DNA of 64,000 nt, taken from contig JAJVHY010000031.1 in assembly GCA_022072455.1 (NCBI GenBank), forward strand, positions 1-64,000, given 5' to 3'. A model generated the notes under the pieces. The model ran no database searches. It worked only from the letters and a program-made list of their open reading frames with translations, and was not told the DNA's origin. Below, in pieces: positions 41,526 to 43,056 of this stretch (position 1 is its first letter; each line of letters begins with the position of its first letter). The stretch is from Verrucomicrobiia bacterium. GTDB taxonomy: Bacteria > Verrucomicrobiota > Verrucomicrobiia > Palsa-1439. Both the position numbers and the translations under genes were made by a program.

Positions 41526-41882
41526 ATGCCCACAGTCGCCATCATCGGAGCGTCAGCGGACCGGAACAAATTCGGCAACAAATCGATCCACGCGCATTTG
41601 AAGGCCGGCTACGAAGTCTTCCCGGTCAATCCGAAGGAAGAGACCATCGAAGGCTTGAAGTGCTACAAGTCGATCCTCGATGTACCCGGCCATCTTGATC
41701 GCATCAGTCTCTATCTTCCGCCGCCGGTCGCCGTAAAGGTGCTCGACGATATCGCGAAGAAGGGCTGCAAGGAATTGTGGGCGAATCCCGGCGTGGAAAG
41801 CGCGGAGTTCATGACGAAGGCGCAGGCTCTCAAACTCAACGCGATCTACGCGTGCAGTTACATGGACGCGGCAGGTCGGTAG
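41526..41882 (+). CDS. CoA-binding domain protein
   Basis: VAIIGASADRNKFGNKSIHAHLKAGYEVFPVNPKEETIEGLKCYKSI. Confidence 0.9.
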   Translation: MPTVAIIGASADRNKFGNKSIHAHLKAGYEVFPVNPKEETIEGLKCYKSILDVPGHLDRISLYLPPPVAVKVLDDIAKKGCKELWANPGVESAEFMTKAQALKLNAIYACSYMDAAGR

Positions 41883-41935
41883 GGTGCGCTATTGCGCACC
41901 ATTCGTCGCCACTGGTGCGCAATAGCGCACCCTAC
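41879..41935. repeat. REPIN-like element C: perfect 23-bp inverted repeat between convergent genes
   Basis: Left arm GTAGGGTGCGCTATTGCGCACCA (41879-41901), 11-nt spacer, exact reverse complement 41913-41935; each arm is itself a hairpin GGTGCGC-TATT-GCGCACC. Confidence 0.9.
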
Positions 41936-43056
41936 ACTTTGTTCGCCTTTAACTCTGCCAGCGAGTAGTGCGTCCCGCGCCAGTCAATGCCGTCGTGGAG
42001 CAGCGTCTTCAGCGTCGCGTTCCAGATGATGTATTGGAACAGAATCGCAGTCAGCGGGAATCCAATCCAGTGCCAGCGTTTCAGGCCGTGAAACGGGGCA
42101 TTATCCATATACATCAATGCGATGACGGCGATAATGGCGAGGTTGAACAACCACACCAGGCCGGTTGTGACAAAAAGCGCGACGACCGGCCAGACGAAGA
42201 GGACGGTTTGCGCAATCGATGCGGCAACGACGACCGAGAGGTTGTATTCCACGCCGGCAAATGAATTTTTCTCCAAACCTTTCACCAACTCGCCCAATGA
42301 CGAGTACCATTCGACGGTCACCATGTCACCGGCAAGCACCATGTCTTGCCGGTAGCCCGACTTCTTAATCAGCTTGCCGAGTTTCATGTCGTCGTCGGGG
42401 CGCATCCGTAACGGTTCGTGGCCGCCAATTTTCCGGTAGACCGCCGCGCGCACGAGGTTAAACGCGCCGATACCGATGTGCCGTGAGCTTTTCGGGTCGC
42501 GTGCCTTCCATGGTTTCGCATACATCCCGAAAAATATTGTGAATGCTCCGCCGAACATGCTGAGCAACGTCCCCGGCATCGCCAGCTGCGGCGCGATGGC
42601 GAGATGGTCGAGTTGCGCCGACACGAGATGATTCACGGCGCGACTAATCGTGCTCGATTCCATGTGAATGTCGGCGTCGGTAAACAGCAGAAACTCGCCG
42701 GTCGCTTGCCCCGCCCCGGCGTGTTGCGCGTGATTCTTGCCGAGCCAGCCTGCCGGCAAGTCGCCGATGTGGACGACTTTGATACCTTCGATCCGGTCGA
42801 GGATCGCGCCGGTCGAGTCAGTGGAACGGTCGTTGACGACGATGAATTCGAGGTTCGGATAATCCTGTTTCAGGAGTGACCGCAACGCCGGCTCAATCTT
42901 GCCGGCTTCGTTGCGCGCGGCAACGATGATCGAGACCTTGCCAGCGAATTGACCGGGCGGCAGGTCGTGAAGTCGACGCAACATCCGATTGCCACGGGCA
43001 AACTCAATCGCTACCGCCAGCAGGCCGAGCAATGTCAGACCGGCGAGCCAGATCAT
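41932..43056 (-). CDS. Glycosyltransferase family 2 protein
   Basis: VSIIVAARNEAGKIEPALRSLLKQDYPNLEFIVVNDRSTDSTG, FTDADIHM. Confidence 0.9.
   Translation of the reverse strand: MIWLAGLTLLGLLAVAIEFARGNRMLRRLHDLPPGQFAGKVSIIVAARNEAGKIEPALRSLLKQDYPNLEFIVVNDRSTDSTGAILDRIEGIKVVHIGDLPAGWLGKNHAQHAGAGQATGEFLLFTDADIHMESSTISRAVNHLVSAQLDHLAIAPQLAMPGTLLSMFGGAFTIFFGMYAKPWKARDPKSSRHIGIGAFNLVRAAVYRKIGGHEPLRMRPDDDMKLGKLIKKSGYRQDMVLAGDMVTVEWYSSLGELVKGLEKNSFAGVEYNLSVVVAASIAQTVLFVWPVVALFVTTGLVWLFNLAIIAVIALMYMDNAPFHGLKRWHWIGFPLTAILFQYIIWNATLKTLLHDGIDWRGTHYSLAELKANKV

Follow-up and report, generated by a model that had tools for sequence, protein, structure and literature searches.

How do two convergent genes come to end inside the tips of one perfect inverted repeat, and what is that repeat? 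The question arises in the window, a 64,000-nucleotide stretch of a Verrucomicrobiia bacterium contig, where a gene for a CoA-binding domain protein and a gene for a family 2 glycosyltransferase (GT2) run towards each other with one short element between them. Judged by their Pfam matches, both convergent ORFs are real genes. The features concerned are the following.

41526-41882, plus strand: CoA-binding domain protein gene, 118 aa (ORF; Pfam CoA_binding_2, E 9e-27)
41880-41882, plus strand: TAG stop of the CoA-binding gene, within the left GTAG
41879-41935, no strand: very probable REPIN, two inverted REPs, 57 bp from outer tip to outer tip
41879-41901, plus strand: left REP, a GTAG tip and the palindrome GGTGCGC-TATT-GCGCACC, with the A at 41901 paired in the long stem
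41902-41912, no strand: spacer, which differs from copy to copy
41913-41935, minus strand: right REP, an other-strand copy identical to the left REP
41932-41934, minus strand (reads 41934-41932): TAG stop of the GT2 gene, within the right GTAG
41932-43056, minus strand: GT2 gene, 374 aa (ORF; Pfam Glycos_transf_2, E 4e-21)

The first-pass annotation had described a perfect 23-bp inverted repeat whose GTAG tips supply both stop codons and whose arms are also local hairpins, and the coordinates and ORF ends agree with that description. The arms (41879-41901 and 41913-41935) are 23 nt long, 100% complementary and 11 nt apart, and each arm alone makes a 7-bp hairpin with TATT as its loop. The arm pattern matched the window three times, compared to 0.04 matches expected in shuffles, with one of the three being the same palindrome on the opposite strand. 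The RNA folds as one long 23-bp stem, with -48.9 kcal/mol and a z-score of -8.4 for the region, and no shuffle equaled it. A scan of the window against Rfam matched no family. REPINs characteristically have GTAG-type tips, each with a GC-rich palindrome behind it, and pair two inverted REPs in one hairpin, as here.

This stem and its location between convergent genes could also fit a bidirectional transcription terminator kept in place for the convergent pair, as the first-pass annotation had suggested. However, neither strand has a T-tract 3' of the stem and a terminator scan returned 0, which leaves that suggestion without support in the sequence, and an intrinsic terminator, in which a stem is followed by a T-tract, was rejected. 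The element is moreover dispersed in multiple copies and has a transposase of its own; several copies are not between convergent genes, and one is found where an HlyD-like gene starts. These features also argue against such a role, and we consider it very unlikely. BIMEs of E. coli reportedly serve as Rho-dependent attenuators and, by analogy, the element may possibly attenuate transcripts in a Rho-dependent manner.

The arm, GTAGGGTGCGCTATTGCGCACC (22 nt), is present in 28 copies in the 4.82-Mb genome at two mismatches or fewer, not counting palindrome echoes and one unrelated match. These copies form 13 inverted doublets, with 2 arms standing alone. The reversed pattern, used as a control on the whole genome, had 0 matches. 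Doublet length across the genome is 55-69 bp. The arms are on average 97.6% identical among copies, and the spacers between the 22-nt arms range from 11 to 25 nt with a mean identity of 0.51 versus 0.47 for shuffles. The family is therefore multicopy, mainly as doublets, with conserved arms and a variable spacer, as REPINs are. The arm was absent from 56 other genomes, ranging from the same genus to the same class, searched at one mismatch. MITEs such as Correia elements are likewise short, non-autonomous inverted-repeat elements; they are mobilized by DDE transposases and duplicate their target sites. A target-site duplication was seen at none of the 13 copies here (none is expected for the REPIN family), and we rejected a MITE of DDE transposases on that ground.

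A complete doublet was found on each side of a RAYT gene at C9:197045-197620, which encodes 191 aa. Its product matched the NCBIfam profile NF047646 (REP_Tyr_transpos) with an E value of 5e-54 and 182 bits (cut-off 80) and Pfam Y1_Tnp (PF01797) with 29 bits (cut-off 23). The best solved relative is TnpA-REP (PDB 4er8; E 5.7e-35), and the sequence contains an HPEHLH-type HUH motif (PEHLH). The C9 gene thus encodes a Y1/HUH transposase that fits the REP-associated equivalog profile and is flanked by the same REPs, as expected of a cognate RAYT; its activity is predicted from homology. Four other Y1 transposase genes (G000:C14:80476, C30:720, C1:482198 and C4:28188, open frames of 317-379 aa) were dropped as the mobiliser because no REP copy is nearby. 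Given the dispersed conserved doublets and the REP-family transposase that they bracket, the element is very probably a REPIN with its RAYT. Such an element is mobile but non-autonomous, consisting of two inverted REPs with GTAG tags, and the C9 enzyme would be what spreads it in this genome. TnpA-REP is known to recognize a single-stranded hairpin with GTAG, to cut at CT or CA and to carry out strand transfer (PMC8266576). By extension, the C9 enzyme would bind the REP hairpin as single-stranded DNA through the palindrome and the GTAG, cleave at a dinucleotide close by (CT or CA; CT in the studied systems) and rejoin the strand elsewhere.

The same system has a counterpart in other lineages. 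Candidatus Melainabacteria GWF2_37_15 carries the exact 22-mer, as do two Rhodobacteraceae/Paracoccaceae MAGs, and in the Melainabacteria MAG the 22-mer flanks a RAYT that shares 38% identity with the C9 RAYT (L098:1341-1976). In another genome (G104), a RAYT fragment with 56% identity adjoins a doublet beginning GTAGGTACGCTGCGCGTACC, which has GTAG tips as here and a different palindrome, and this combination fits what is expected of co-evolving REP/RAYT pairs. The Melainabacteria genome belongs to another lineage and has a GC content of 37%, and it carries the exact GC-rich 22-nt REP; the identity could stem either from horizontal spread or from a REP that is strongly conserved. On one Rhodobacteraceae contig (L099), a 167-aa ORF is also ended by the tip TAG.

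The claim that the element supplies both stop codons is literally true in the window, and the arrangement recurs at other copies. All of the gene 3' ends that we judged to enter an element past its tip stop at the tip TAG (13/13), compared to one-third expected if the frame were free (p 6e-7, in a test devised post hoc). The ends are distributed as follows.

Window: CoA-binding gene and GT2 gene
C2: GH130-like gene
C3: GFO/IDH/MocA gene and a 198-aa ORF
C7: phosphomannose isomerase and M32 peptidase pair
C9: mutS, RAYT and URO-D gene
C19: trypsin-like gene
C21: pullulanase and GH66 pair

For this count, the ORFs near each copy were listed, Pfam matches were used to choose the strand, and gene ends were assigned on the basis of ORFs, Pfam and length, so that the choice between ORF and gene is partly a judgement. 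Four ORFs were left out: L087:3002-4105+, L091:3372-4586+ and L092:2486-3973+, which are without a Pfam match where the opposite strand has one, and L084:1731-3998+, which was dropped on judgement for its proline/arginine-rich antisense look, the opposite strand being without a Pfam match as well. Keeping the last of these would give 13/14. Further ends lie just upstream of a tip: three at -3, where a TGA directly adjoins the tip, and another three between -5 and -7. A few others are farther away. The placement of elements at gene ends is partly explained by the compactness of the genome, given that gene 3' ends in the window are a median of 42 bp from the next gene (by a rough gene model). 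At the RAYT locus (G000:C9:196974-197683; L036:1475-2184), the RAYT stop is the tip TAG of the downstream doublet, and the upstream doublet terminates mutS.

Relatives without the element indicate how little the proteins have changed. The GT2 orthologues of three genomes share the end point to the residue (HYSLPELKANKI or similar, followed by TGA), and an orthologue end at the same residue was found in 4 of 8 testable cases (GT2, GFO/IDH/MocA, M32 peptidase and isomerase). The pullulanase here is one residue shorter than its orthologues, the CoA-binding protein 1-5 residues shorter, the trypsin-like protein 7 residues shorter than its one close relative (internal gaps apart) and MutS about 5-14 residues shorter than its relatives. 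At most of these ends, the stop codon in relatives is TGA or TAA. Judged from these orthologues, insertion swaps the stop codon and the downstream DNA with little or no change in the protein. The C-terminal truncation or extension predicted by the first-pass annotation was thus not seen for GT2 and amounts to only 1-5 residues for the CoA-binding protein. Orthologues that lack the element and end at the same residue had been named there as a refutation; the GT2 ends argue against truncation, not against insertion. The multicopy nature of the REPIN, its near-identical arms beside unrelated spacers, its cognate transposase and the absence of the arm from relatives support the first-pass proposal of recent insertion or active maintenance. 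The first-pass interpretation therefore held for insertion, hardly at all for truncation and not for the terminator, and it had not recognized the element as a REP or REPIN. No empty site was found for the window copy, the gene pair not being adjacent in relatives. Relatives do keep the gene pair of the C7 copy, with its members 276-437 bp apart, unrelated DNA between them and no readable junction. This spacing indicates that the C7 site lost or gained DNA in addition to the element.

The genome itself displays dispersed doublets, a cognate transposase, placement at gene ends and a frame bias, and two explanations of the precision with which elements sit on stop codons have to be weighed. We favor selection against junk tails, in which a copy at a gene end would survive if the frame closes cleanly at the TAG with few or no residues lost, given that the other two frames would add a REP-encoded tail; a site preference of the transposase may contribute besides. 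The live rival is that the RAYT prefers targets with TAG/CTA; an amber stop would be one such target, and the palindromic CTAG shared by two convergent genes with a 4-bp overlap another. The tip TAG would then partly be the old stop, and the target would set both frame and position. The 13/13 tip stops with six more ends 3-7 nt upstream of a tip, the exact orthologue ends in half of the testable cases and the C7 copy, at which both convergent genes end exactly, are consistent with this, as is the finding that GTAG can guide the choice of the CT cut site (PMC8266576). A or T also precedes GTAG in 21/26 flanks (p 0.001, uncorrected, with 12 positions tested), but the flanks are otherwise without a fixed motif. 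The TGA and TAA stops of relatives speak against targeting, and the shortened MutS and trypsin-like proteins indicate that not all sites were native stops. Joining the flanks does not restore stops; the joined window flanks read through, with no nearby stop for either gene. We therefore regard stop-codon targeting as unlikely, and its stronger form, in which the RAYT of this lineage inserts the REPIN specifically at stop codons as an element specialized to swap stops and leave proteins unchanged, as quite doubtful.

With selection as the preferred explanation, native stops would have been replaced while the proteins stayed almost unchanged, and a strong hairpin would begin at the stop codon in each of the two mRNAs. 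Such a hairpin might stall terminating ribosomes and lower the output of both genes, making the element a 3' regulator of translation. The stem does start at the stop codon and, as cited in PMC12306157, REPs of E. coli that lie no more than 15 nt from a stop codon reportedly cause ribosome stalling and lower output. However, mobility also explains the placement, and stalling could be an effect and not the reason for the presence of the element; we consider regulation by analogy with E. coli improbable, though not remote, as the reason for its presence.

REPINs were defined by Bertels and Rainey in 2011 (PMC3116915), and Nunvar et al. described in 2010 how REPs bracket RAYT genes, very near or immediately downstream of the rayt stop (PMC2817692). 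As in the REPIN/RAYT (REPtron) systems of Pseudomonas fluorescens SBW25 and Stenotrophomonas and in E. coli TnpA-REP, the element is an inverted doublet of GTAG-tipped REPs with conserved arms and a free spacer, located near gene ends, and its RAYT is bracketed by the same REPs. Unlike in those systems, the copy number is low (13 doublets versus hundreds), the host lineage is another one, complete doublets stand on both sides of the RAYT and the RAYT stop is a tip TAG. The habit of supplying TAG was already published in 2013: in the part of Di Nocera et al. consulted here (PMC3733652), GTAG REP families have GTAG tips, form dimers and often give flanking ORFs their TAG stop. The element is a neat but ordinary example of that habit. 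That part of the paper says "often" and offers no frame statistics, whereas the present data provide 13/13 and an orthologue comparison. What this genome adds is a compact, low-copy REPIN/RAYT system with nearly universal stop-codon capture, in which selection versus target choice in REP placement can be tested on few loci.

Individual copies show further variation. One doublet, on C7 (G000:C7:37588-37650; L049:489-551), has compensated changes in both arms (GGTACGC...GCGTACC) that keep both hairpins, and possibly represents a second subfamily. A REPIN on C4 (near G000:C4:285377-285444; L088:3966-5234) lies 12 nt past the start of a possible ATG of the HlyD-like gene, in an apparent lipoprotein signal peptide (LAVLLLAGC), with one frame open throughout the element, indicating either a tolerated N-terminal insertion or a wrong start call. 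The single REP on C19 (G000:C19:97926-97947; L093:4027-4048) ends two convergent genes differently: the trypsin-like gene stops at the tip TAG, and the rRNA adenine dimethylase gene on the opposite strand stops at a TAG in the hairpin loop.
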